Below, in pieces: positions 241 through 22,816 of a stretch of 41,068 nucleotides of DNA. The DNA is taken from contig CANRCR010000011.1 in the NCBI GenBank assembly GCA_947629165.1, positions 1 through 41,068 of the forward strand. The letters run 5' to 3'. Position 1 is the first letter of the stretch, and every line of letters begins with the position of its first letter. The stretch is from an uncultured Bacilli bacterium (GTDB lineage: Bacteria; Bacillota_I; Bacilli_A; RF39; UBA660). Below the pieces are notes generated by a model. That model did no database searches and was not told the DNA's origin. It saw only the letters and a program-made list of their open reading frames with translations. Position numbers and translations under genes: made by a program.

Positions 241-597
241 TTAATCTTTGGGACGAAAAAACAAAGCGAAGAAAAAAGTAAAGACAATCGCTACGACGAT
301 TCCGGAAGAAGAAAAATCAAACATTCCCATCGTTAAACCGACAATTCCAAAGTCGGCCGCTTTGGCCATCGCACCATGGGTAAGTAAATGGCCAAAACTA
401 GTGATGGGTACCAAAGCCCCTGCCCCAACATAATTGACAATAATATCGTAGATGTTAAAGGTATCGAGAAATGCCCCGACAACAACAAAGATTGAGGTAA
501 TGTGACCGGCCGTGAGTTTCGTATTATCGAGAATAATTTGGGCAATCAAACAAACGGCACCCGCAAATAAGAAAGAATATAAATAGGTCATGTTCAC
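241..597 (-). CDS. spoVAE: Stage V sporulation protein AE (SpoVAEb type)
   Basis: A 118-residue, highly hydrophobic protein with about four membrane helices. The order and spacing of AGALVPITSFGHLL and the C-terminal FFALFFRPKD match the SpoVAE (SpoVAEb) subfamily. Family knowledge: with SpoVAC and SpoVAD it takes part in Ca-dipicolinic acid movement across the inner spore membrane during sporulation and germination. The chosen start is GTG at 597, because GGAGGTGG lies about 7 nt upstream; the ATG two codons later is too far from it. The GTG overlaps the TGA of spoVAD (GTGA), so the two are translationally coupled. It is the last gene of the spoVAC-D-E operon. spoVAA, spoVAB and spoVAF homologs are not next to it. 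Confidence 0.93.
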   Translation of the reverse strand: MNMTYLYSFLFAGAVCLIAQIILDNTKLTAGHITSIFVVVGAFLDTFNIYDIIVNYVGAGALVPITSFGHLLTHGAMAKAADFGIVGLTMGMFDFSSSGIVVAIVFTFFFALFFRPKD

Positions 598-1589
598 GAT
601 ACCACCTCCAAACTAATAGCATGGGCAATACTTAAAATCGATTGTTTTTGATAAGAAAAAGTAGGTGAAAACAAAGCTCCAGTAGCAACTAATAAAACAC
701 GTTTCATTTCTTTTTTCTTTAAAAGATGTAGGATATATCCATAGTTTACTAGTGCACTACAGACCGGTCCACTGCCACCCGCTAACACTTCTTTTTGATT
801 GGCTAAATTATAAAGCATCGTTCCACAATCGTTATAATTAGCTTCGATATCGATTCCGTACTCGGTCTTCATATAATCCTTTAATATCGCTTTTCCATAG
901 ACTCCCAAATCCCCTGTAAGAATCAAATCATAATAACTAGGATTCCGTTTTAAATCTGTCAAATGACGATAAATCGTATCGGCCGCCGCAGGAGCCATAA
1001 CGGCACCCATATGTAGAGGATCTTTTTGTCCTAAATCTTGAATAATTCCCATCGTGGAACTTTCAAGTCGAATGGAAGACTTTTGACGAGAAAGTAACAT
1101 ACTAGCACCACCCGTTGCCGTAAAAGTAGCCGTACTCGGTTTAGGTGCTCCATATTCGGTTGGATTTCGAAATTGTTTTTCACTTCCCATATTGTGACTC
1201 GAGGTAGCACAAATAGCATTTTCAACTTCCCCACTTTCGATAAAGTTTGCTGCAATAATTGCTCCTTCCAAAGAAGTGGCACAGGCACTGTAAATACCTA
1301 AAAAAGGAACTTTTAAAGGTTCTACAGCATAACAAGAAGAAGTAATTTGATTTAATAAATCACCCGATACAACGAGTTGAATTTGTTCTTTCGAAAGATG
1401 TGTTTTATGTAATAAAATATCCAAACTATCTTTTAACAATCGCACTTCGGCTAATTCCCAACTCTTTTCATGATTGTATAAGTCGTCGTAACTTTTATCA
1501 AAGTATTTTCCTAAAGGTCCCTTCGCTTCGTAAGGACCCGATACCGTGGCCGTATCTTGTACATACACATTTTTATATTGTTGTGTCAT
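594..1589 (-). CDS. spoVAD: Stage V sporulation protein AD (SpoVAD), thiolase-fold DPA-binding protein
   Basis: 331 residues from the ATG at 1589, which has GGGAGGATAAC just upstream; an in-frame upstream codon at 1634 lies inside spoVAC and has no ribosome site. The thiolase-like fold shows in FLGIYSACATSLEG (nucleophile-elbow region), in FTATGGASMLL, and in the glycine-rich AGGSGPVCSALV near the C-terminus. Family knowledge: SpoVAD is the peripheral inner-membrane protein that binds dipicolinic acid and is needed for its uptake into the forespore. It starts 2 nt after the spoVAC stop and overlaps spoVAE by 4 nt, so all three are one transcript. Length is near the family norm of about 335-340. 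Confidence 0.95.
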   Translation of the reverse strand: MTQQYKNVYVQDTATVSGPYEAKGPLGKYFDKSYDDLYNHEKSWELAEVRLLKDSLDILLHKTHLSKEQIQLVVSGDLLNQITSSCYAVEPLKVPFLGIYSACATSLEGAIIAANFIESGEVENAICATSSHNMGSEKQFRNPTEYGAPKPSTATFTATGGASMLLSRQKSSIRLESSTMGIIQDLGQKDPLHMGAVMAPAAADTIYRHLTDLKRNPSYYDLILTGDLGVYGKAILKDYMKTEYGIDIEANYNDCGTMLYNLANQKEVLAGGSGPVCSALVNYGYILHLLKKKEMKRVLLVATGALFSPTFSYQKQSILSIAHAISLEVVS

Positions 1590-1591
1590 TG

Positions 1592-2032
1592 TTATCCTCC
1601 CATAATGATCAATCGTAATAATCCAAAAAACCAAGCCGAAACTACCCCGTATAAAATTACACTTCCAGCAAGTTTAAAAATATTGCTTCCAATTCCATAA
1701 ATAGGCCCTTCTTTTCGATATTCGATACCAGCACTCGTCATTGAATGAGCAAATCCAGTAATCGGAATAATTAATCCACATCGTGCAAAAGTAACCCATT
1801 TATCAAAAAATCCTAAAGCCGTAAATAAAGAAGCAAAAAAGATTAAAGTGATAATCATAAAAGTAGAAGCATCTTTCGCTCCAATATGTAACCACCACGA
1901 ATAAAAATCGACTAAAAATTGTCCCAAAAGACCAACGAGTCCACCGGTAACAAAAGCAATAAAGGCATTTTGGGCTCGTGTCTCTTTCGGTTTATGTTTT
2001 TCTACCAACTCGTCGTATTTCTTTTTTTCCAT
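1592..2032 (-). CDS. spoVAC: Stage V sporulation protein AC (SpoVAC)
   Basis: A 146-residue membrane protein with a short charged N-terminus (MEKKKYDELVEKHKPK) and about four hydrophobic segments. CGLIIPITGFAHSMTSAGIEYRKEG is close to the SpoVAC family consensus region. Family knowledge: SpoVAC forms a mechanosensitive-type channel for DPA in the inner spore membrane. AGGTGA precedes the ATG at 2032. It is the first gene of the spoVA operon and carries a SigG-like promoter about 20 nt upstream, as expected for a forespore operon. Confidence 0.95.
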   Translation of the reverse strand: MEKKKYDELVEKHKPKETRAQNAFIAFVTGGLVGLLGQFLVDFYSWWLHIGAKDASTFMIITLIFFASLFTALGFFDKWVTFARCGLIIPITGFAHSMTSAGIEYRKEGPIYGIGSNIFKLAGSVILYGVVSAWFFGLLRLIIMGG

Positions 2033-2147: not shown

Positions 2148-3146
2148 ATGACAATCGATACGTTAAAAGCATTAGTAAATGGACAATATATCGAAGATGT
2201 AACAACCTTACTTACGCAGCAAAATTTTCAAAGTGACGAAGAAAAAATCGCATTCTTAGAATTAGTCTATACCTATAACAACCTTTTTATAAAAAATCAT
2301 GAAAAACAAATTCGTTTAGCGAAAGAAAGAGAAATAGCAAGTAAAGTCGCTATCCCGACACAAAATAGTAACCGTCAAAAAGATGCTTTACTAACAACCG
2401 AAGAAAAAGAAAGTACCATCGATCCCAAAGTTCAAGAAATATTATCGTTACTCGAAATATGTGATTTAGAAGAAGTTACTACCCTATTTCCAGAAAGAAA
2501 TAATCCTTCTTTTGATCGAATTATTAATCAAGTCATGGTCGCTTACTATCGAGAAATGGTATTTTTAAATAGTTACTTACACACACTTCAACTACAAGTG
2601 CCTAGTAAAGAAAAAGAAGAAATTCAAAATAGTTTGATTCATCGAAAACAAGTCTTTCAAATTTTAAAACAATTCCGGGCACCGGTAAGTGAAGAAAGTT
2701 ACGATTTGACATTATCCGCTCCTTGTTTGATACATTTAGAAACGCCTAAAGGAGAATCGTACTTACAAAAAGATATCGAAAGTCTTTCACCAGAACTATA
2801 TGTTCACTTTTTAAAAATTTATGAACCGCTTATTAAAGGAGAGCCGGTTGTTTCCCATTATATGAATAATAATAAATACAACAAACTAGTCGTAGTCAAA
2901 AATAAAATTCACCAAGCACGTATTTATACAGTGCATCTTACCGACAATATCCAAGTTATTTTAGGAGCATTAAATAAAAAACAAGATTGGGGAAAACAAG
3001 AAACAAACTACATCGATAATCGATACAGTAGTTTCTTTGCTCAGAAAGATAAACTATTAGAAAAAGTACAAGACGAAACTTTCTTAAAACAAAATCAAGA
3101 AAGAACACAAAAAGTACTTACCCTATTGAAAAGAGGTGCACGATAA
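2148..3146 (+). CDS. Conserved-looking cytoplasmic protein, function unknown
   Basis: 332 residues, not recognised. There is no signal peptide or membrane segment. Composition is rich in Lys, Glu and Gln, with predicted helices; a polar low-complexity stretch lies at about residues 60-95. A more structured region begins near residue 180 (around APCLIHLETPKGES) and includes a beta-rich part (NKLVVVKNKIHQARIYTVHL). The start is well supported by AAAGGGGG about 10 nt upstream and by a consensus SigA promoter. Its stop is 1 nt from the start of the next gene, so both are probably made from one mRNA. Codon use resembles the neighbours, with no sign of recent transfer. Confidence 0.75.
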   Translation: MTIDTLKALVNGQYIEDVTTLLTQQNFQSDEEKIAFLELVYTYNNLFIKNHEKQIRLAKEREIASKVAIPTQNSNRQKDALLTTEEKESTIDPKVQEILSLLEICDLEEVTTLFPERNNPSFDRIINQVMVAYYREMVFLNSYLHTLQLQVPSKEKEEIQNSLIHRKQVFQILKQFRAPVSEESYDLTLSAPCLIHLETPKGESYLQKDIESLSPELYVHFLKIYEPLIKGEPVVSHYMNNNKYNKLVVVKNKIHQARIYTVHLTDNIQVILGALNKKQDWGKQETNYIDNRYSSFFAQKDKLLEKVQDETFLKQNQERTQKVLTLLKRGAR

Positions 3147-3147
3147 G

Positions 3148-4992
3148 ATGGATATCAAAGAAAAAATCAAAGAACAAATCAAAGCACTACAAGTAGAAGA
3201 TACTCCAAGTGATCGTTTTCTTTTCTTTCAATCACTTTTCAAAAAGTATAATCCTTTAGAAATAGGCAAATTTGATCAACTTACCGAAGGAGAATGGTTA
3301 GGATTATTTTTAATCGTAAATAATGAGGATATTTCACTTGAAGAAGTAAAAGAAAGAATCGCCATCGTCGATCAATTTATTGAAAATAAGACACCCCATG
3401 ATTTAAAAAAGTTCCTACTCTATTTCGAAATCATTTTCGATAAGGTAGCTATGTACGAAGAAACAAATAATTCAATTTTTACATTCTCACTAAAATCACA
3501 AAAGATAATGGGAGAAACGTACGATGCAAAATTATTTCGTTTAATCGATTCTTGTCTAAAAAGTCACGATGAACAAGCCCTCGCCGATTGGAAAGAAATC
3601 ATTCGTTTTAAAGCAGACTATATCTATGGATTAGACTACATTTCAAATGAGAAAGATGTAGAAGCAAAAAGATTCATGGAAAAGAATTTAAAATTTAGAT
3701 TGCGAAAAGTAAAAGGTGCTTACCATTTCACTCCCTTAATCCAAAAACTTCAAGAATATCAAAACAATTACTTAAAAGAGCAAGAAAGAAGAAAAAGAAA
3801 AAGAAGAATCTTAAAGCAACAGTACGAAGAAGTATTAAAAGCGCAAGAAAGCGGAATACCCTTCAAAGAAATTAAAAAAGAATGGAAGGCCTTAGCCCCC
3901 GATATTCAAATTGCTTTAATAAAACAAGTATTAAGTACTCAAAACGAACAAGAGAAAAAGCTCCAACAAGAAGAAAGAAATTTAGAGAAACACAAACTAG
4001 TTCACACTTTATTAATTGAACACGGCGTACATCCGAGTATCCTTGCCGAACTCGAAAAAGAAAACTTTGACGAAGAAAATTTAAAAGAAGTAGTAAACGC
4101 CTTAAGTCAAGCTTGCTTCCCAATGGAAAGTATCACGAATATCGCTACTTTAACAACCTTATTACAAGCAAACAAAGAAACAGTTAGTCACCTACTTTCA
4201 TACGTAAAGACCGGTGCTATCACCATCGACTTTTTAAATAATCATCCGGAACTATTAACCGAAAAAGAAACAAATACAAAACGCGTTTTCGATTTACTTC
4301 AACAAGAAAACGGAAACTTTACGAGTGAGTACTACGATTCAAATTTACTATTGGTTGATGCTTCCATCATCGAAGAAAGAATCCGTTTAGCCAAATTTTA
4401 TGGATTCACTTTAGGAACCGATGCAGAAACTTTTAATCTTTTAAGAGAAGAAGCTCTTTTTGATTTAGTAGACTTTGCTATTGAAAAAGAATTACCACTC
4501 GAAGAAATAATTAAAATAAAAGGAACTAAAGAAGAACTACAAATGATTCAAAAACGACTCTTCATCGCTCAAAACTTCGGTCTAGAAATAATGAATGACG
4601 AAGATGAAATACGTTATAATATTTTAAATGGAAGTTCCTTTATCGTACCGAACCATCTTTTAGATGAAGTAATCGTAAATGATACTTTATTCCATCAAGA
4701 AGATACTCAAGTTAAATTACTTGATAAAACACCTAGAAGAAACATCGTTGAAACGCCATGGACAAAAGCCCTCGATGAAACCTACCTCGATGAAGAAAAA
4801 GAATGTTATAACTTCCAAGGAGTTCGAATTTCAAGAGGTAAAATCTTACGTAACTTAGCGGTATTAAAAGAGAAAGAAGAAAACGAATCTACCTTAATCT
4901 ATCAAGCCGCCCTTTATAATACTTTCCTTAGTCAAGAAGAAATAGATACCTTAAAGACCTGTTTATTTTCATCCAAACAAAAGAGAATCTAA
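3148..4992 (+). CDS. Large helical protein of unknown function with a basic coiled-coil segment
   Basis: 614 residues from the ATG at 3148 (AGAGGTG at 3132-3138); a GTG at 3136 overlaps the previous gene and has no ribosome site. Not recognised. It is almost entirely helical and charged, without a signal peptide or membrane helix. Residues about 200-290 form a likely coiled coil with a strongly basic patch (RRKRKRR near 214-220). The part after residue 300 resembles repeated short helical hairpins, with many LLxE/LLxxN motifs. The gene follows the 332-residue protein by 1 nt and is followed by a terminator, so this is a closed two-gene operon. The two products may act together; that is inference from arrangement only. 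Confidence 0.72.
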   Translation: MDIKEKIKEQIKALQVEDTPSDRFLFFQSLFKKYNPLEIGKFDQLTEGEWLGLFLIVNNEDISLEEVKERIAIVDQFIENKTPHDLKKFLLYFEIIFDKVAMYEETNNSIFTFSLKSQKIMGETYDAKLFRLIDSCLKSHDEQALADWKEIIRFKADYIYGLDYISNEKDVEAKRFMEKNLKFRLRKVKGAYHFTPLIQKLQEYQNNYLKEQERRKRKRRILKQQYEEVLKAQESGIPFKEIKKEWKALAPDIQIALIKQVLSTQNEQEKKLQQEERNLEKHKLVHTLLIEHGVHPSILAELEKENFDEENLKEVVNALSQACFPMESITNIATLTTLLQANKETVSHLLSYVKTGAITIDFLNNHPELLTEKETNTKRVFDLLQQENGNFTSEYYDSNLLLVDASIIEERIRLAKFYGFTLGTDAETFNLLREEALFDLVDFAIEKELPLEEIIKIKGTKEELQMIQKRLFIAQNFGLEIMNDEDEIRYNILNGSSFIVPNHLLDEVIVNDTLFHQEDTQVKLLDKTPRRNIVETPWTKALDETYLDEEKECYNFQGVRISRGKILRNLAVLKEKEENESTLIYQAALYNTFLSQEEIDTLKTCLFSSKQKRI

Positions 4993-5012
4993 TATTAAGG
5001 TTCTCTTTTTTT
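4981..5012 (+). terminator. Terminator after the two-gene operon
   Basis: AAGAGAA / TTCTCTT with a 13-nt loop, then seven T residues. It includes the stop codon region of the upstream gene and lies between two convergent genes. Confidence 0.75.
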
Positions 5013-5676
5013 ATGCTACTAAACGATGTTGTAATTTCGTTAAAATTTTATTTTCACTACGTGACACTTGTACTTGAGACATACCTAAATCGTGGGATAT
5101 TTCACTTTGTGTTTTATCGTCAAAATAGCGATATTCGATTAATTTTCGTTCTTCTTCCGGAAGTTTAGCAAGTTCGGTATAGAGATCTTGTATATCCGCA
5201 TCGTACTTCTTTTCCTCGAAAGAGACCGTATCGAGTAAAGCTATTTCTTTTCCATCGTTATCTTCATTCAATGTAGCGTCGAGTGACAAAACAAAGTTTT
5301 TCGTTTGATCTGACATCAGAATACTTTCTTCGGGTATTTCTAAAAATAAAGATAATTCAGTAACGGTAGGCGTCCGCATCAATTTTTGAGCAAGGACTTC
5401 TCTTCCTTTATCAATACGACGCGATAACCGAATCATATCCTTACTAATTTTAATATTTTTATCTTCGCGAACAAAACTCAAAACTTCACCCCAAATATAG
5501 GTATACGCATAAGTTGAAAACTGGTTATCATACGCCTGGTTATAATTATGAAGTGCCTTCGAAAGTCCTAACATCCCCGCTTGATACAAATCATCCTTAT
5601 CATAATATGGACAAAAACGACGAATAATCGAATAAACTAATTTTTCACAATCGACGACGGCTTGATCTGTTTCCAT
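5011..5676 (-). CDS. sigF: Sporulation RNA polymerase sigma factor, SigF/SigG type
   Basis: 221 residues from the ATG at 5676 (AAGGAGAAAG upstream); a longer reading frame reaches 5715 but overlaps the STAS gene and lacks a ribosome site. Region 2 is clear (DDLYQAGMLGLSKALHNYN, then FSTYAYTYIWGEV). Region 4 ends with a helix-turn-helix containing GMSQVQVSR, which is typical of the SigF/SigG/SigB group. It is slightly shorter than Bacillus SigF (255). The preceding gene is a SpoIIAA-like STAS protein, so the arrangement matches spoIIA, and SigF is more likely than SigG. The anti-sigma gene spoIIAB, normally in between, is absent. SigG remains possible. Confidence 0.85.
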   Translation of the reverse strand: METDQAVVDCEKLVYSIIRRFCPYYDKDDLYQAGMLGLSKALHNYNQAYDNQFSTYAYTYIWGEVLSFVREDKNIKISKDMIRLSRRIDKGREVLAQKLMRTPTVTELSLFLEIPEESILMSDQTKNFVLSLDATLNEDNDGKEIALLDTVSFEEKKYDADIQDLYTELAKLPEEERKLIEYRYFDDKTQSEISHDLGMSQVQVSRSENKILTKLQHRLVA

Positions 5677-5689
5677 TTTTCTTTCTCCT

Positions 5690-6010
5690 TTACAATTGTA
5701 CGACTGAAAAAACATTTAATTCATCTTTGACCCATTGCTTTGGCTTTTGCTTAAAACAAGATTCAAAAGCATTCCCGCCACATAAGATTAGTTCACCACC
5801 TTTAGCTTGAAGATGTTGATCAAGTAAATCAATTAATGTGATCCCCGTTTCATTAATCGATGTCACCTGTGAAAGATTGAGGCTAATATAACGAATCCCT
5901 ACTTCCTCGATGAGATTTAATAAATAAGAAAAAACTTCTTTGGTCTCAAAACAATTCCCTTTTAATCGAAAAAATAACACACCTTTACGAAACTCCACTG
6001 TCTCAATCAA
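5690..6010 (-). CDS. spoIIAA: STAS-domain anti-anti-sigma factor, SpoIIAA-like, with Glu at the phosphosite
   Basis: About 106 residues from a TTG at 6010, chosen because GAGGTGA lies 5-6 nt upstream; a GTG at 6019 would lie inside that ribosome site. The protein aligns without gaps to Bacillus SpoIIAA in its core: IRYISLNLSQVTSINETGI corresponds to the SpoIIAA segment ending in the FMDSSGL phosphosite motif. The residue equivalent to Ser58, which SpoIIAB phosphorylates, is Glu (residue 54 from TTG), followed by Thr where SpoIIAA has Ser59. The gene ends 13 nt before the sigma factor start. Family knowledge: SpoIIAA frees SigF from SpoIIAB when unphosphorylated. Here the kinase gene is missing from the locus, so the wiring must differ or SpoIIAB is elsewhere. 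Confidence 0.82.
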   Translation of the reverse strand: MIETVEFRKGVLFFRLKGNCFETKEVFSYLLNLIEEVGIRYISLNLSQVTSINETGITLIDLLDQHLQAKGGELILCGGNAFESCFKQKPKQWVKDELNVFSVVQL

Positions 6011-6057
6011 GGAAATCACCTCGCATTTAAATATAGAACAAACAAAGAAAAGAAGAT

Positions 6058-6077
6058 ACTACTTCGACAAAAGTAGT
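6058..6077 (-). promoter_or_regulatory. Spo0A-box-like site within a palindrome upstream of spoIIAA-sigF
   Basis: On the minus strand TTGTCGAA (6063-6070) is a perfect match to the Spo0A box core. It sits in the middle of the inverted repeat ACTACTT / AAGTAGT. A possible -10, TATATT (6030-6035), lies 27 nt downstream, placing the box at about -40 to -47, comparable to Spo0A-activated promoters. No convincing SigH promoter is visible. Confidence 0.55.
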
Positions 6078-6103: not shown

Positions 6104-6130
6104 CAAAAAAAGAAAGAAATAATTTCTTTC
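6104..6130 (-). terminator. Terminator of the PRPP synthetase gene
   Basis: Minus strand GAAAGAAA-tta-TTTCTTTC followed by seven T residues. It separates the upstream gene from the spoIIAA-sigF unit. Confidence 0.8.
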
Positions 6131-7248
6131 TATTGATGGGTGGGATATTTCCCTAAACTTTTCATTTTTGAAACAATTTTTGATCGTCCTTCTTGATACT
6201 GGCGAATAGATTCTTTTTCATAAATGGCATTAATAATTCGAGCTAAATACTTAGAACAATCGACTTCCCGGTACCACGGTTTTTGTTTAATTTCTTCAGG
6301 AACATAAGTAACGTTCGTCGTATAAAGTTTTTGAAATTGTCCTTTTTGATACGCTTCATCGAAAGCCGTAACACTTTTTGCTCCTTCTGTAAACAAAGGA
6401 AACGTTGCTACTAAATAAATTTTATTAGCACCACTTTCTTTCATGCTAGAAGCGACTTCTAAAATCGAAGACCCACTAGCAATCATATCGTCGGTAATAA
6501 TTAAATCTTTCCCCCGTACATCCGCTCCTAAAAAACGATGATCGACAATCGGATTTTTACCATCGACTACTTTGGTAAAATCTCTTCTTTTGTAGAAGGC
6601 ACCTACATCGACGCCCAAAGCACTCGCATAATAAATAGCACGGTCCATCGCGCCCGTATCCGGTGCTACAATCATTAAATTATTGGGATCGTAATTTTCT
6701 TTTTCAATAAAACGACTCAAGATAGAATACGTAGGATACAAATTATCAAAAGAACAATTTTCAAGTGCATTTTCAATACCTGGATTATGGACATCGAAAG
6801 TAATAATCCCATCGACTCCCCGCGACTCTAATTCACGTAAAGCATCCGCACAATCGAGTGACTCACAACCTTTTCTTTTATCTTGTCGAGACTGATATAA
6901 AAGTGGCATAACGACATGTAAACTGTTCTCTTTCCCATTCATGGCAGAAATAACACGTTTAATATCTTGAAAGTGATCATCCGGACTACGTAAATAACTT
7001 TGATTACGAACCGTATAAACAGATTCTGGTCCATAATTACCAACATCGGATAACAAGAAAATATCTTTGCCACGAACCGAATCGACTAGTGTTGCTTTCC
7101 CTTCTCCATTGCTAAATCGATCGAGTTTAACATTTACAATGTTAGAAGTATTTTCATTACGTATTGTTTTTAACTTCTTGCCAACTAAATTTCCAAACGT
7201 CGTGATATTAGGCATGATAATTAACTTTAAATTATTCTCTTTACTCAT
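6130..7248 (-). CDS. prs: Divergent ribose-phosphate pyrophosphokinase (PRPP synthetase)
   Basis: 372 residues; AGGTG precedes the ATG. The family shows in YQSRQDKR (residues about 118-125, ATP/Mg site), FDVHNPGIENA (151-161, equivalent of the VDLHAxQIQGFF region) and the PRPP loop LIITDDMIASGSS (249-261). Reaction: ribose 5-phosphate plus ATP gives PRPP and AMP, feeding nucleotide, His and Trp synthesis. It is about 55 residues longer than standard bacterial Prs (about 315), with an extended N-terminal half and a C-terminal basic tail, and the VDLH motif is altered to FDVH. A consensus SigA promoter and its own terminator make it monocistronic. Whether a canonical prs also exists cannot be seen here. 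Confidence 0.87.
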   Translation of the reverse strand: MSKENNLKLIIMPNITTFGNLVGKKLKTIRNENTSNIVNVKLDRFSNGEGKATLVDSVRGKDIFLLSDVGNYGPESVYTVRNQSYLRSPDDHFQDIKRVISAMNGKENSLHVVMPLLYQSRQDKRKGCESLDCADALRELESRGVDGIITFDVHNPGIENALENCSFDNLYPTYSILSRFIEKENYDPNNLMIVAPDTGAMDRAIYYASALGVDVGAFYKRRDFTKVVDGKNPIVDHRFLGADVRGKDLIITDDMIASGSSILEVASSMKESGANKIYLVATFPLFTEGAKSVTAFDEAYQKGQFQKLYTTNVTYVPEEIKQKPWYREVDCSKYLARIINAIYEKESIRQYQEGRSKIVSKMKSLGKYPTHQ

Positions 7249-7343: not shown

Positions 7344-7874
7344 TTAATAAGTCTCTTTCTTGATAGCTACCTTAGAAGGAGGAGAAACATAGATAGAAAG
7401 CGTTTCTTGAAGTGGACTCATACCTTCCAAAGTCGGATCAAAATCCAATAAAGGTAACACTTCTGGGAAATCCTTTTTACCTCGATATGAAAAAGAACCG
7501 ACACTAACCATATCAAACTTTCCTAAAATAAACGCATCGTTTAAAATTTTTCGATATAAATTAGAAGAAATATACTGCTGTTCCGGTAAAGCAAGTAAAC
7601 AAGAAACATTTAAATTACTAAAAATCGTACTTCCTAAGTTGGAAAGATAAGCCATTTGAATTACCATTTTAGAAGCATCCATAGGATCTGTAAAAACAGG
7701 TCCATTTAAATGATGTCGATTAAAATAATCGTTAAAAGCTTGAATATGAAGGGTTAATTCTTCCCCATTGGCAAGTCTTTGTCCTTTTTGATAAGAAGTC
7801 ACTTCAAAACCCCGAGCACTTGTTAGGCTTGGTGTAACAATAGTTAAAAAAGAATCAAATAGACCTGTCGTCAT
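7344..7874 (-). CDS. Protein of unknown function (176 residues)
   Basis: Not recognised. It is a soluble-looking 176-residue protein without a signal peptide or clear membrane helix, with a mixed alpha/beta pattern. Hydrophobic strands such as SCLLALPE and DMVSVGSFSYRG alternate with polar helices; the C-terminus (SIYVSPPSKVAIKKETY) is basic. GGAGAGGG lies upstream of the ATG, and a SigA promoter with TATAAT is about 35 nt before it. It has its own terminator, so it is a single-gene unit between prs and the Ham1-type pyrophosphatase. Nothing in the context fixes a function, though both neighbours act on nucleotides. Confidence 0.65.
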   Translation of the reverse strand: MTTGLFDSFLTIVTPSLTSARGFEVTSYQKGQRLANGEELTLHIQAFNDYFNRHHLNGPVFTDPMDASKMVIQMAYLSNLGSTIFSNLNVSCLLALPEQQYISSNLYRKILNDAFILGKFDMVSVGSFSYRGKKDFPEVLPLLDFDPTLEGMSPLQETLSIYVSPPSKVAIKKETY

Positions 7875-8017: not shown

Positions 8018-8578
8018 CTAATCTTTCTTATCTTTTAAATAGTTTGCTAATTCCCGGTAAGCATCGGTATTCCAAACTAAACATCTTTCATCATCCGGAT
8101 AATTTCCCATGGTTTTATTATAACCTTCTGGAATAAAGATAAAGTCCCAACTCCAACCATAAGTTCCTGACTTTTTCTTGGCTATTTTACCTTTTGTAAT
8201 CGACTTAAAAACAATCGGTTCCTTGCCATATTCGCAATAAGCAAAAGCTTCCATGAAACAAGCATTTCGGTTTTCGACACCTTTTAATAATTTCAAAAGT
8301 CCATCTTCGCCAATACGTTCATCAACATAATGCGTATATGGACCCGGGAACCCACCTAAAGCCTCTACATATAAACCCGTATCATTTTTTAAAACCGTTG
8401 CCTTTAATTTGTCACTGGCTTCTTTGGCGGAATGCATGGCTACTTCTTCGACCGTATCGGCCTGAATCTCCGTCGTTTCCATTTTTACCTGTTCTACTTC
8501 AATACCTAAAGGTTCTAAGATTTGCTTAGCACTCAAAATTTTAGACCAATTTCCTGTAACATAAATAATCTTTTTCAT
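8018..8578 (-). CDS. Ham1/RdgB-type non-canonical purine NTP pyrophosphatase
   Basis: 186 residues. The N-terminal YVTGNWSKILSAKQIL (5-20) is the family's TGNxxKxxEA-type nucleotide site. LKNDTGLYVEALGGFPGPYTHYV corresponds to the DSGLxVdaLxGxPGvySary catalytic segment, with Asp at the active site and Thr replacing Ser. Reaction in the family: (d)ITP or XTP to the monophosphate plus pyrophosphate, clearing deaminated purines. AGAGGTGG precedes the ATG and TATAAT lies about 26 nt upstream of it. The substitution of SARY by THYV places it nearer the eukaryote/archaea-like ITPase side than Bacillus RdgB. Exact substrate range is not visible from sequence. Confidence 0.85.
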   Translation of the reverse strand: MKKIIYVTGNWSKILSAKQILEPLGIEVEQVKMETTEIQADTVEEVAMHSAKEASDKLKATVLKNDTGLYVEALGGFPGPYTHYVDERIGEDGLLKLLKGVENRNACFMEAFAYCEYGKEPIVFKSITKGKIAKKKSGTYGWSWDFIFIPEGYNKTMGNYPDDERCLVWNTDAYRELANYLKDKKD

Positions 8579-8640: not shown

Positions 8641-9852
8641 TTAGCAAGCGCCTATCATCCCTTTTAAAATTCGACCAAAAATCGAAAAGAAGCCAAGCGG
8701 TTGAACGGTTTCTTTTACGGTCACATCGTAAGTCCCTAACACTTCCCCGTTCGATTTTAATAATACTTTACCGACAATATCTCCCGGTTGAACAGGAAGC
8801 GAAAAACGATCTAATTGTAACTCGGTAGTAAGTTGATCTAAAGTGTCACTTTTTTTAGTGACTACACCAATATCCTGCGTAGCGACAATTTCGATTTTAT
8901 CCCGATTTGCCATTTCCATTTGAACTTCCGTTAACACTTCTCCTTTTTGTTTTACTAACTGCATTTTATAAAGATTAAATCCATAATCGAGTAAAGCTGC
9001 CGTCTCACTATTACGTACTTTACTATTTTCTTCTCCAAATACTAAAGCGACTAAACGGAGCCCATCTTTTTTAGCGGTTACTGCCATACAGTAAAGTGCA
9101 TCATCCGTATGTCCCGTTTTGAGTCCATCGGCACCCGGATAAGTACGAATCAATTTATTGGTATTGACGAGCCAAAACTTATTAGGTGTATCCGCTCTTA
9201 AATAGTCTTCATAAACCGAAGAAAATTCAAAAATTTGATCATGTTTTAATAACTCTTTTACAATAATACTCATATCACGTGCCGAGGAATAATGGTTTTC
9301 TTCATCTAATCCCGTACTATTCATAAAATGCGTATTCGTAAGTCCCAACGCTTGAGCCTTATCGTTCATCATTTGAACAAAAGCTTCTTCCGTACCACCG
9401 ATACGCTCTGCCAAAGCAACGGTCGCATCATTGGCACTGGCCATCGAAAGTCCTTTCATTAAATCGCGAACACTCATAATTTCACCGGTTTCTAACCAGA
9501 TTTGACTTCCTCCCATACCAGATGCATTACTACTGATGGTTAATTTCTCATCCCAAGAAAGATTCCCCGCTTCGATAGCTTCCAAAATTAAAATCTGACT
9601 CATCATTTTAGTCATCGAAGCAACACTAATACGTTCGTCTGGATTTTTTTCAAACAATATTTTTCCCGTAGATGCCTCCATTAAAATTCCACTTCTGGCA
9701 TTCGCAATTAAATTCTCTTCCGCATTCGTAGTAGCCATCTCCTCATCCTCTGAAATCAACATAATATCCGAAGTGGTATCCATCGCCAAAACAGTTAAAA
9801 AAGGATACCAAAATAAACAAAAAGAAAAACATAAACACACTATCTTTTTCAT
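8641..9852 (-). CDS. D-alanyl-D-alanine carboxypeptidase, peptidase S11 (PBP5/DacF type)
   Basis: 403 residues with an N-terminal signal peptide (about 1-23). All three penicillin-binding motifs are present: SMTK at 79-82 (catalytic Ser79, Lys82), SAN at 139-141 and KTG at 245-247. A C-terminal beta domain and a terminal amphipathic helix (FFSIFGRILKGMIG) would anchor it to the outer face of the membrane. It trims the terminal D-Ala from peptidoglycan pentapeptides. AGGAGG precedes the ATG. In Bacillus, dacF heads the spoIIA operon; here the spoIIA-like genes lie 2.6 kb downstream on the same strand but behind other genes and terminators. A DacF role is possible, but vegetative DacA cannot be excluded. 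Confidence 0.92.
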   Translation of the reverse strand: MKKIVCLCFSFCLFWYPFLTVLAMDTTSDIMLISEDEEMATTNAEENLIANARSGILMEASTGKILFEKNPDERISVASMTKMMSQILILEAIEAGNLSWDEKLTISSNASGMGGSQIWLETGEIMSVRDLMKGLSMASANDATVALAERIGGTEEAFVQMMNDKAQALGLTNTHFMNSTGLDEENHYSSARDMSIIVKELLKHDQIFEFSSVYEDYLRADTPNKFWLVNTNKLIRTYPGADGLKTGHTDDALYCMAVTAKKDGLRLVALVFGEENSKVRNSETAALLDYGFNLYKMQLVKQKGEVLTEVQMEMANRDKIEIVATQDIGVVTKKSDTLDQLTTELQLDRFSLPVQPGDIVGKVLLKSNGEVLGTYDVTVKETVQPLGFFSIFGRILKGMIGAC

Positions 9853-9950: not shown

Positions 9951-11990
9951 TTAATTTATTTTATTTTGTTTTTTTAAAAGAACGAAAGAACAAGTAACGC
10001 CTATAAAACTGATTACAAAGCAATAAAGCATTTTATCTAAAGAGTCAAAAGTATGTGGTGGGTCGATAACCGGTTCATCAACTACTTTCTCAAACTTTCC
10101 GACGATAGTAATATTATTGGCAGGCATAACAAATTTACCATCTTTTAAAAGAACATCTTGTACCGTCCAACCTAAAAATTTATAAGTGTCAAATGTTTCA
10201 TCTCCTACGGTTGTATCGAGTGTAACCACATCTCCAACACGATATTCTGTTTCCAAAGGAAAAACAAAATCATTAGGCATATCTCCCTCAATTAAATAAG
10301 TTACCGTATAAAGTGGTTCAAATTCTCCTGTAATTACAACGTCGTGATCAGGCATAACAAACGTATTATCTTGAAGTGTTACAGAATTTGTACTCCATCC
10401 TTTAAAATAATAATGTTCTTTTGTTAAGTCCTCTTCTAAAGTAACCGTTTCTCCTTCTTTATAAAGAATTGCTTTAGGAACAGTAACATCGGATGGAACA
10501 TCGCCATCAAGTTGATAACGTACATAATGTGTTTTAACAGCAGCTACTTGATAAGGATTTGCTTCCGTACCATTACCAGTAGTAAAAATAGCATCATTAG
10601 GTAACACGACTACTGGACGTACACTATATTGGTAATTAGGATCACTATCATGTCCACTTGCAAAAGTATCTTTTGTATCGCGCCAATCAAGATTACCTGT
10701 CCGTTCGATATTAAAGGTTGTAGTTCTACTATCCGAATCAAAATAATAAGGACTCATCAAGAAATAATAATGACCATTGTTAAGATAATAATCGTTATTG
10801 TTTGTATTATGTTTTCCACCAGCTAATATAGCTTCATCACTCGTAAGTAAACCAACCGGATATTGTAATTTTTCATTTCCATTTTTATTTCCTGTAACCG
10901 AAAAATTATCATTTAAATTCGTACAAGAAAGATTTGGTTGCGCTGAAACAGCACGTTGATAAGTACTAAAATACAAGTATTCCTGACTAGAATCCCCATT
11001 TAAAGGATCCCATCCATTATAAGTAGCAATCGTTCGATCATTACAAAAGGTAGCATTCGAATCAAGATAATCGGTATATGCGGTCATATGTTCCCGATAC
11101 CATTCATCGACAGCCGTTTTAGCAAGTGAATTATTTTCGTTAGCAAACATATTATTAATAGCCGTCTCAATAGTTTCACCATTTTTCAATTCGATATAGA
11201 ATGCAGAACGACTATCATTGGTATAAACAATATAATATACTGGATTACCTGCTCCACATTCATGACTCGTCGTAAAACAAGTGTAATGATGATTTTTAAT
11301 CGTCTCACGATCTTTTTCCCAATTATCACGCCAATTACTATTCGCATCCGGATCGTCATGACCTGCACCATTTACAGTCGTCTTTAACGTATAACCTGTC
11401 GATTCATCATAAGTAACAGTAGTTCCAAACTTGTAATACCCATCACTATCCGATTTGCTTAAGTCATCGACATTTCGTTTATTAACAGAATACAAGTTTC
11501 CAAACATGTAACCTGCATAAGCTAAATTCCAATTATCACTTTGATAAGCAGTTAAAATATCGGCAGAATTCGTATTTTCACAAGTATATTTATCTCCATC
11601 TAGAACAGCTTCACCATTATAAATAAGTTTAATGCCACCATCTTCTGTTGTTCTAACTACTTGCCAACATACATTTCCAAATAAAACATTATTATTATCT
11701 ACCTTACCACGATAATAATATACCGGATGCTCATCTTCTTTAGTAGAAGACATTAAATAAAGACCTCTTCCATTCGTCTCAGAAGAAATAGCACTAAAAT
11801 CGATTTCGTCATCTAATTTTGCATCCTTTATCAATTCCTCATAAAGGTTAAAATATTTTTCCTTTGTAAGAAGCGATTCTTGATAGTTTATCCGTCCCGA
11901 TTCCAACGAAAGTTTTTCAAAATAAGAAGCACTTGGAAGTAAAGCAAGGGATAAAGCGAAAAGAAAAGTTCCAATTTTTTTCATCATCAT
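9951..11990 (-). CDS. Large surface protein with two InlB-type (Flg_new) repeats and a C-terminal anchor
   Basis: 679 residues. Signal peptide about 1-22. A large Asn/Asp/Tyr-rich extracellular region spans residues about 60-480; it contains NVCWQVVRTTEDGG and ends with SVRPVVVLPNDAIFTTGNGT, a type seen in many gut Bacillota surface proteins. Two InlB B-repeat (Listeria-Bacteroides) units follow at about 490-560 and 561-632, each ending in FVMPxxxxxIxGxFE. The C-terminus has PPHTF (644-648), a hydrophobic segment (about 655-672) and KKQNK, the layout of a sortase signal with a non-standard motif; plain membrane anchoring is the alternative. Six or more Cys residues in the ectodomain hint at disulfides. 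AGAGGTGA precedes the ATG. Ligand or substrate unknown. Confidence 0.82.
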   Translation of the reverse strand: MMMKKIGTFLFALSLALLPSASYFEKLSLESGRINYQESLLTKEKYFNLYEELIKDAKLDDEIDFSAISSETNGRGLYLMSSTKEDEHPVYYYRGKVDNNNVLFGNVCWQVVRTTEDGGIKLIYNGEAVLDGDKYTCENTNSADILTAYQSDNWNLAYAGYMFGNLYSVNKRNVDDLSKSDSDGYYKFGTTVTYDESTGYTLKTTVNGAGHDDPDANSNWRDNWEKDRETIKNHHYTCFTTSHECGAGNPVYYIVYTNDSRSAFYIELKNGETIETAINNMFANENNSLAKTAVDEWYREHMTAYTDYLDSNATFCNDRTIATYNGWDPLNGDSSQEYLYFSTYQRAVSAQPNLSCTNLNDNFSVTGNKNGNEKLQYPVGLLTSDEAILAGGKHNTNNNDYYLNNGHYYFLMSPYYFDSDSRTTTFNIERTGNLDWRDTKDTFASGHDSDPNYQYSVRPVVVLPNDAIFTTGNGTEANPYQVAAVKTHYVRYQLDGDVPSDVTVPKAILYKEGETVTLEEDLTKEHYYFKGWSTNSVTLQDNTFVMPDHDVVITGEFEPLYTVTYLIEGDMPNDFVFPLETEYRVGDVVTLDTTVGDETFDTYKFLGWTVQDVLLKDGKFVMPANNITIVGKFEKVVDEPVIDPPHTFDSLDKMLYCFVISFIGVTCSFVLLKKQNKIN

Positions 11991-20944: not shown

Positions 20945-22816
20945 TTAATCTTTTTCACCAGTAATTACGTATTCAGGGACTTCATCCCAATTCACTCCGG
21001 AAGAAGTAGAAGTAAAAATTTTATCTAACTTTTCTTTAATTTGATCTCTCGTAAAAGGTTTAGAAATATAGTCTTGAAAACCTATTTCTAAATAATGTGC
21101 TTTCGCACCTTGTATGGCATCTGCCGTTAAAGCAATCACTGGAGTATGAAAATTAGGATTTTCTTTTAATTTTTTTAAAGTTGTTTCTCCAGACATTTCT
21201 GGCATCATAATATCCATTAGAATCAAATCATATTTGTTGTTTGCATTAATTTTATTAAGACAGTCTGCACCACTTTCACACGCATCTACCATAATACCTA
21301 ATTTTTCAAGAACTCTTTTTGCTACTTTGATATTCAATTTATTATCATCGACAACAAGGACCTTCTTATCTTGATAAATAACCGGTTGAGAAATGCTCTC
21401 CATGGTTTTAGAAAGATTCGTTATAGTAGTTCGTGGTTTTATTTTTTGAGGAATAGTTGCTACAAATAAAGATCCTTTACCAAATTCACTTTGAACATTA
21501 ATCTTACCATTCATTTTGTCTATCAATGCTTTCGTAATAGCAAGTCCTAAACCAGTTCCTTCAATCGTTGTATTTCGATCCATATCAAGTCGTTCAAATT
21601 TCGAAAAAAGTCGTTCGATTTGCTTTTTTTTTATTCCTCGTCCCGTATCTTCAACACTAATCATTAAAAGGCAATTAGTTTCTTTATTTATGCACTTTAT
21701 ATTTAGATTAATATGTCCTTGTTCAGTATATTTAATAGCATTAGTAAGTAAATTATTAATAATTTCTTTGACGTGAATTCTATCCCCTATTAATTCTTCT
21801 GGAACGTCTTCCTGAATATTCAACCTAAAGTCAATAGGCTTATCCCCAATACGTGTAGTAGTTACTTTTACTAATTTAGTAATTTCTTCTCGAAAAGCAT
21901 AAGGTTCTTCGACAATATCCATTTTATCACTTTCAATTTTATTAATATCTAAAATATTGCCTACAATTTCTAATAATGTTTGAGAAGCATTTTGAATATC
22001 TTTAGCATCTTCAATAACTTCTTGAGGAAGGTTCCCTTGGTAAGAAGTAATAGACTCCGATAAACCAACGATAGCATTTAATGGGGTTCTTATTTCATGC
22101 GACATAGAACTTAAAAAATCAGATTTTACACGATTGGCTTTTTCGGCTTGATTTTTAGCAATAACCATTTCATTTAATAACTTTACATCTGGATTTTCAA
22201 TCGTAAAATACATAATTATAATAGTTAAACAAAATAAATAACCAATTAAAAAAGTAGAAGGAAGCAATATATTAATCACCAAGTTTAATATTCCTAAAAC
22301 CATAAACGAGTAAAATGGAGTAAATTTTTGCCGAGCAATTTGTTTTCGATAACGGATACATAAATATATCTGGTATAAAATATGGATAAAGCAAAAGCCA
22401 AAAGCCAAATAAATAGAGGGCCCTCTCGGAACAATACTACCCGCATCCGATACAAATTCAATCGGAAGAAGCATAATTAAAATGACGGTTATAGTAGTAA
22501 CTACAGTAAGTATTTTAAAGTTTGCTTTTTCATTTTTACAAACGGATAATAGATATCTTCCAAAAAGACTATTTAAAAGGACATAACAGGTAGGTACTAA
22601 TTTCGCTCCTAATTTGTAAAAAATAGTTTCAATATCATTTCCCATACTAAAATAAATAGCTGTTGCGATTTCTAATATGGTCATGATAATAGAAACAATG
22701 AGAAGCCAACCATAAATTTTGGTTTCTTCATTTTTTACTTTCTTTTTACCAAAAAAGACAACCGCAAAAATTATCATAATAATAAGGGTACATAATGAAA
22801 AATAAAAACCTATCAT
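20945..22816 (-). CDS. Seven-TM hybrid histidine kinase with C-terminal receiver
   Basis: 623 residues. The N-terminal 205 residues hold about seven membrane helices without a large outside loop, like a 7TM or sugar/lipid-sensing module. A HisKA domain follows with His240 in SHEIRTPLN, then an HATPase with NNLLTNA (N box), DTGRGI (G1) and GTGLGL (G2). A receiver occupies about 483-600 with acidic pair Asp490/Asp491, phosphoacceptor Asp535 in LILMDIMMPE and Lys586. The last 20 residues are a polar tail. Phosphate would pass from His240 to Asp535, but there is no HPt domain or response regulator nearby, so the output partner is unknown. It is monocistronic with an extended -10 promoter. Confidence 0.93.
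   Translation of the reverse strand: MIGFYFSLCTLIIMIIFAVVFFGKKKVKNEETKIYGWLLIVSIIMTILEIATAIYFSMGNDIETIFYKLGAKLVPTCYVLLNSLFGRYLLSVCKNEKANFKILTVVTTITVILIMLLPIEFVSDAGSIVPRGPSIYLAFGFCFIHILYQIYLCIRYRKQIARQKFTPFYSFMVLGILNLVINILLPSTFLIGYLFCLTIIIMYFTIENPDVKLLNEMVIAKNQAEKANRVKSDFLSSMSHEIRTPLNAIVGLSESITSYQGNLPQEVIEDAKDIQNASQTLLEIVGNILDINKIESDKMDIVEEPYAFREEITKLVKVTTTRIGDKPIDFRLNIQEDVPEELIGDRIHVKEIINNLLTNAIKYTEQGHINLNIKCINKETNCLLMISVEDTGRGIKKKQIERLFSKFERLDMDRNTTIEGTGLGLAITKALIDKMNGKINVQSEFGKGSLFVATIPQKIKPRTTITNLSKTMESISQPVIYQDKKVLVVDDNKLNIKVAKRVLEKLGIMVDACESGADCLNKINANNKYDLILMDIMMPEMSGETTLKKLKENPNFHTPVIALTADAIQGAKAHYLEIGFQDYISKPFTRDQIKEKLDKIFTSTSSGVNWDEVPEYVITGEKD

Follow-up and report, generated by a model that had tools for sequence, protein, structure and literature searches.

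The window analyzed here is a 41,068-nucleotide stretch of DNA, contig 11 of the genome of an uncultured Bacilli bacterium in the order RF39 (G000; 1.09 Mb, 94% complete). Its minus strand carries a gene cluster with the Bacillus order dacF-spoIIAA-[spoIIAB]-sigF-spoVA minus spoIIAB, in which a STAS gene stands in the spoIIAA position directly before a sigF-like sigma factor gene (Table 1). Just upstream of dacF, positions 9951-11990 (-) encode a large protein that looks secreted and contains InlB-type B repeats (PF18998, PF09479). The two plus-strand ORFs inserted on the other side of sigF have no Pfam or NCBIfam match, and none of the 16 sigF loci compared holds a relative; for these reasons they were rejected as candidate replacement regulators.

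Table 1. Features of the STAS-sigF locus and its surroundings, in window positions
Feature	Position	Strand	Basis or remark
spoVAE(B)	241..597	-	TIGR02839, 131 bits
spoVAD	594..1634	-	TIGR02845, 414 bits, above cut-off
spoVAC	1592..2032	-	TIGR02838, 157 bits; downstream, matching the dacF-spoIIA-spoVA order of canonical loci
Two overlapping ORFs (332 and 618 aa)	2148-4992	+	Inserted between sigF and spoVAC
sigF-like sporulation sigma gene	5011..5676	-	PRK05572/TIGR02885, ~180 bits; ORF reaches 5715
STAS gene in spoIIAA position	5690..6010	-	PF01740, 37 bits; ORF 5690-6019
Shine-Dalgarno GAGGTG of STAS gene	6017..6022	-	Sequence; spacing similar in relatives
-10-like TATATT	6030..6035	-	0A box lies 27 nt upstream; similarly placed element in relatives
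Exact 0A box TGTCGAA (predicted Spo0A~P site)	6063..6069	-	~50 nt upstream of STAS start
prs-like phosphoribosylpyrophosphate synthetase gene	6130..7248	-	NF005299, 440 bits; between dacF and STAS-sigF
Two ORFs between dacF and prs	8018-8578, 7344-7874	-	
dacF-like D-Ala-D-Ala carboxypeptidase gene	8641..9852	-	Upstream of STAS-sigF, as in Bacillus

The functional start codon of the sigma gene is the ATG at 5676, separated from the STAS stop codon (TAA) by a 13-nt gap that contains an AGGAG Shine-Dalgarno sequence. The STAS gene probably starts at the TTG at 6010, giving a protein of ~106 aa, since a GAGGTG Shine-Dalgarno sequence lies at 6017-6022 and homologs start at the matching codon. The sigma protein matches SigF models best (PRK05572, 182 bits; TIGR02885, 178 bits; compared with 127 bits for SigG and 116 bits for SigB) and scores below the curated SigF (equivalog) cut-offs. 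The STAS protein scores 37 bits against PF01740 but reaches 17.8 bits against the SpoIIAA model TIGR02886, short of its curated cut-off of 114.75. SpoIIAA genes are directly linked to spoIIAB-sigF; the STAS gene is linked to sigF, spoIIAB being absent.

In textbook accounts, gene expression in the forespore begins with the compartment-specific activation of SigF by SpoIIAB, SpoIIAA and SpoIIE. With the canonical spoIIA locus of Bacillus and Clostridium, the family to which the window belongs (f1) shares the dacF ... spoIIAA ... sigF - spoVA order, the SpoIIAA fold, the SigF family, the upstream Spo0A box and, further down the cascade, spoIIR and sigG, but it differs in having neither SpoIIAB nor SpoIIE nor the conserved phosphosite Ser58, and in the relaxation of the residues that face SpoIIAB.

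An earlier note on this DNA had described the STAS gene as running into the sigma gene across a 13-nt gap with no spoIIAB. Both ORFs are as described and no SpoIIAB lies between them, nor was one found elsewhere in G000 by profile search at the TIGR01925 cut-off; the genome also has no second STAS, and the combination named in the note as refuting its reading, a spoIIAB elsewhere with a second SpoIIAA bearing Ser, is not found in G000. The GHKL matches listed for G000 sit in ORFs of 408-627 aa, the size of histidine kinases, and none comes near the SpoIIAB cut-off; the GHKL ORF in the window itself (20945-22816) resembles, by eye, a membrane-located sensor kinase that also has a receiver domain.

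The absence extends to the whole family. In a first set of 59 relatives, comprising 36 f1 genomes plus relatives from the class, SpoIIAB (TIGR01925) scored above cut-off in 0/36 f1 genomes and in all eight class relatives with a SigF locus, and the SpoIIE PP2C domain (PF07228) was likewise found in 0/36 f1 genomes and in the same eight SigF-bearing outgroups. A wider set of 394 genomes from the class (completeness ≥90%; SpoIIAB positives counted at E ≤ 1e-12) showed SpoIIAB in no f1 genome, although 55 f1 genomes are spoIIR-positive, and in 41 of the 43 spoIIR-positive genomes outside f1. The corresponding Fisher p of 1e-25, for f1 against the rest of the spoIIR-positive genomes, measures consistency and does not count independent losses, one ancestral event probably lying behind it. 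Two genomes outside f1, G233 (which has 6% contamination) and G320, carry spoIIR and gave no SpoIIAB match.

A few short GHKL matches do occur in f1 and score best as histidine-kinase HATPase_c, not as SpoIIAB; among those examined, one adjoins a HisKA-domain ORF and one runs off the start of its contig. In G032 (L092 1488-2486), a histidine kinase gene apparently split into adjacent HisKA and HATPase ORFs imitates a GHKL protein of SpoIIAB size. All f1 genomes examined appear to be uncultured metagenome-assembled genomes (MAGs), in which sporulation is predicted from genes, and those of the first set are 69-97% complete. That SpoIIAB and SpoIIE are missing just because such genomes are incomplete or badly binned is nevertheless extremely improbable, since dozens of genomes have an assembly that runs unbroken through the site where spoIIAB would lie and puts STAS next to sigF, and since the absence of SpoIIAB holds for every f1 genome sampled in the class-wide set at ≥90% completeness. 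The kinase and anti-sigma factor SpoIIAB and the phosphatase SpoIIE are thus gone from f1, with the caveat that a very diverged anti-sigma factor could escape a profile search. With both proteins absent family-wide, there is strong support for the proposal of the earlier note that the partner switch is no longer the canonical one.

Some of this has precedent in the literature. The genes spoIIAA, spoIIAB, sigF and spoIIE were reported in all spore-forming bacilli and clostridia by Galperin et al. 2012 (PMC3533761). Field, Bowerman and Hugenholtz 2024 (PMC10868615), in the part of their paper available to us, place spoIIAB and spoIIE among the genes that are reduced or missing in the order RF39 and predict RF39 spores with markedly different regulation; the gene content of f1 fits the RF39 gene set given there. 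Their analysis is one of gene presence and absence, and the available part contains nothing that we found on the STAS protein, its phosphosite, Spo0A boxes, promoters or repeated STAS loss (PMC10868615). A literature search of incomplete coverage returned no paper that deals with the STAS site, with the Spo0A boxes or with the promoters. The bare gene absence is therefore already in print, while the drift of the site, the promoter architecture and the fate of STAS appear to be new. RF39 is also among the taxa passed to chicks via eggs, a route by which mainly spore-formers were transplanted (PMC7028958), and this transfer may be taken as indirect support for spores.

The SpoIIAA phosphosite of B. 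subtilis, Ser58, is the earlier of the two Ser residues in MDSSG, and the window STAS reads N57-E58-T59-G60 at this place, so the alignment by which the earlier note put Glu at the Ser58 position is correct. In loci with SpoIIAB, the residue is Ser in 52/52 cases; in SpoIIAB-less loci it is drawn from 13 residue types (39 family sequences, duplicates removed: N 8, S 5, E 4, M 4, I 3, T 3, L 3, C 3, K 2, and A, Q, D and G in a single occurrence each). Because of this wide range Glu is not fixed, and its reading as a selected phosphomimic, which the note had put forward, is rejected; Ser persists in a few relatives and is not the rule. The further suggestion that another kinase acts on the STAS protein is weakened, because no conserved acceptor residue is left.

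The relaxation is not confined to the phosphosite. Residues that are invariant or near-invariant in canonical SpoIIAA, namely E21, D23, H25, F55, S59, G62, G66, R67, S94 and G95, are also relaxed without SpoIIAB, and the family STAS proteins retain D57 (85%), G20, N49, G76, C81 and E106. Taken on the aligned sequences, the pattern at site 58 and its neighbors is that of a lost kinase interface. STAS domains without a SpoIIAA-type phosphosite have precedents, for example in some stressosomes. The non-phosphorylatable stressosome STAS proteins are scaffold partners of RsbT-type kinases, unlike the f1 STAS beside sigF, and we know of no STAS of this type next to sigF.

Several properties of the STAS protein suggest that it is more than a remnant. 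In an AlphaFold model of a family member (not the window protein), the STAS domain is predicted at pLDDT 95-98 and best matches SpoIIAA among STAS structures (1th8_B and 1tid_B, also 1thn; TM 0.89-0.91, ~2 Å rmsd), and the family protein is accordingly modeled as keeping the SpoIIAA fold. Substitution rates could be compared in five family pairs of sufficient closeness, and in these STAS evolves under purifying selection, with dN/dS of 0.05-0.19, similar to that of sigF in the same pairs; the window's own STAS, whose close relatives have no STAS, lies outside these pairs. An N-terminal beta-hairpin motif, approximately EFRKGILFVRLxG, was matched as a pattern in 31/43 family STAS proteins and in 0/52 canonical proteins, and E8, G12 and F15 are conserved positions specific to the family. 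A genome-wide profile search gave a strong STAS match, without in-frame stops, in 27/36 f1 genomes. The intact frames, the low dN/dS, the confidently predicted fold and the family-specific positions all argue against the view that the STAS gene is a decaying, functionless leftover. We consider that view quite unlikely, although it would account for the loss of conservation in the SpoIIAB-facing residues and for the repeated loss of the gene, whose presence and absence on the sigma tree require at least six changes. It would also account for the lack of STAS in the four other members of the window's genus (G001-G004), in one of which (G004) dacF adjoins sigF directly; because these congeners lack it, STAS could be on its way out in the window's species.

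The same losses bear on the idea that STAS now regulates SigF directly and independently of phosphorylation, as either an anti-sigma factor or an activator, so that the operon would form a new two-part switch. In its favor are the purifying selection in the tested pairs, the new conserved hairpin absent from SpoIIAA, and the arrangement of the genes: where both are present, STAS and sigF are nearly always adjacent, and most loci have them about -40 to +17 nt apart. However, STAS is absent from 8/35 SigF-bearing f1 genomes in which sigF stays, and in G005 another gene separates the two, and we regard a switch of this kind as rather doubtful. Since several lineages have lost it, STAS is dispensable. 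When a natural in-frame STAS-stop-sigma read-through was predicted with AlphaFold and an alignment, the domains were well folded and the pTM was 0.40; because the SpoIIAB-SigF positive control also scored low (0.48), this value carries no weight for or against the direct STAS-sigma contact suggested in the earlier note.

Upstream of the operon, the transcriptional input of the canonical locus appears to be preserved. An exact 0A box (TGTCGAA) precedes 49/59 of the family STAS-sigF or sigF operons (expected, 0.87), mostly 25-90 nt before the start codon, and about a dozen operons have a second 0A box, nearly always exactly 26 bp away. When the loci are aligned on their 0A boxes, a -10-like element appears ~27-31 nt downstream. 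These predicted sites support direct activation of the operon by Spo0A~P, as for the stage II operons of Bacillus.

The sigma factor itself and the cascade below it are also retained. All 59 SpoIIAB-less SigFs, the window sigma among them, form one clade (support 100/100) apart from SigG, SigE/K-like and SigA, and the SigG of f1 groups normally with other SigG. In the first set, spoIIR is present in 34/36 f1 genomes and SASP genes in 28/36. Two classical SigF targets are spoIIR and sigG; upstream of these, the forespore-type element G[ACT]ATA-N15-18-CA[ACT][AT]A was found in 18/21 and 7/8 regions, respectively (0.87 and 0.27 expected from shuffles; 5/136 control upstream regions), an enrichment that is partly post hoc, the element having been first noticed and then counted in the same regions. 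A scan for the strict B. subtilis SigF promoter, GYWTA-N15-GGNRANANT, showed no enrichment (1/21 regions), and by the ratio of SigF to SigG rates the family could not be told apart from the outgroups. Sequence comparisons of this kind suggest that the SigF of f1 is diverged yet apparently working. A separate SigG was not found in G000, probably through an assembly gap, since all four congeners have sigG; the alternative is that SigF took over the role of SigG in this species.

Since the inhibitor, the phosphatase and the conserved phosphosite are all gone, f1 bacteria must restrain SigF by other means. The explanation that we favor, and consider fairly probable, is an ancestral dismantling of the switch that left SigF mainly under Spo0A transcription and STAS in a role independent of phosphorylation. 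The window locus would then be a relic of a spoIIA operon, the SpoIIAA/SpoIIAB/SpoIIE switch having been taken apart in the family's common ancestor, with loss of SpoIIAB and SpoIIE and retention of sigF, spoIIR, sigG and the spoVA genes. Disappearance of the kinase would have released the constraint on Ser58 and the SpoIIAB-facing residues, whose conservation is lost, and the level of SigF synthesis may be set mainly by Spo0A~P acting at the boxes of the STAS-sigF promoter. Where it is kept, STAS probably acts by phosphorylation-independent binding, possibly on SigF or on an RNA polymerase partner. Weighing against this explanation, five of the 39 family STAS proteins still carry Ser at the phosphosite and three carry Thr. 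A bolder form of this explanation, in which a family of endospore-formers activates SigF without the partner switch, through Spo0A~P timing and a SpoIIAA remade by means of its hairpin as a partner of SigF or RNA polymerase, is offered tentatively, as somewhat unlikely in all its parts.

A different possibility, in line with the earlier note's suggestion of a different anti-sigma factor, is that a non-homologous or highly diverged anti-sigma factor restrains SigF and that the switch has merely changed parts. In Bacillus, SigF activity before septation would normally be harmful, and f1 genomes contain many genes of unassigned function from which such a factor might come. Among these are exported-looking proteins (family F4) encoded directly upstream of the STAS gene, with a member in nine sigF loci (for example L109 4275-5855, L097 6523-7878 and L098 1504-2613), no Pfam match above cut-off and no representative in the window. 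Against it, f1 has no GHKL protein that resembles SpoIIAB in size and type, a search for Fin as a possible substitute inhibitor returned none above cut-off, and in the loci compared only the spoVA genes accompany STAS-sigF consistently. We judge this exchange of parts to be rather improbable, and retain the dismantling of the switch as the preferred explanation.

The existence of a lineage with the remainder of the cascade but no switch of SpoIIAB, SpoIIAA and SpoIIE suggests that the switch is dispensable, and raises the testable question of where forespore specificity comes from without it. It is also a warning that spoIIAB is unsuitable as a universal sporulation marker, because one predictor in which spoIIAB is found in all predicted spore-formers scores RF39 at 0% (PMC12536801).

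A second small STAS-like ORF (~90 aa) with a similar N-terminal hairpin was seen in G020 (L238 ~1736-2000 (+)), G005 (L237) and G010 (L239), and none was seen in the window genome. In G020, this ORF lies just upstream of apparent yqfC and yqfD genes.
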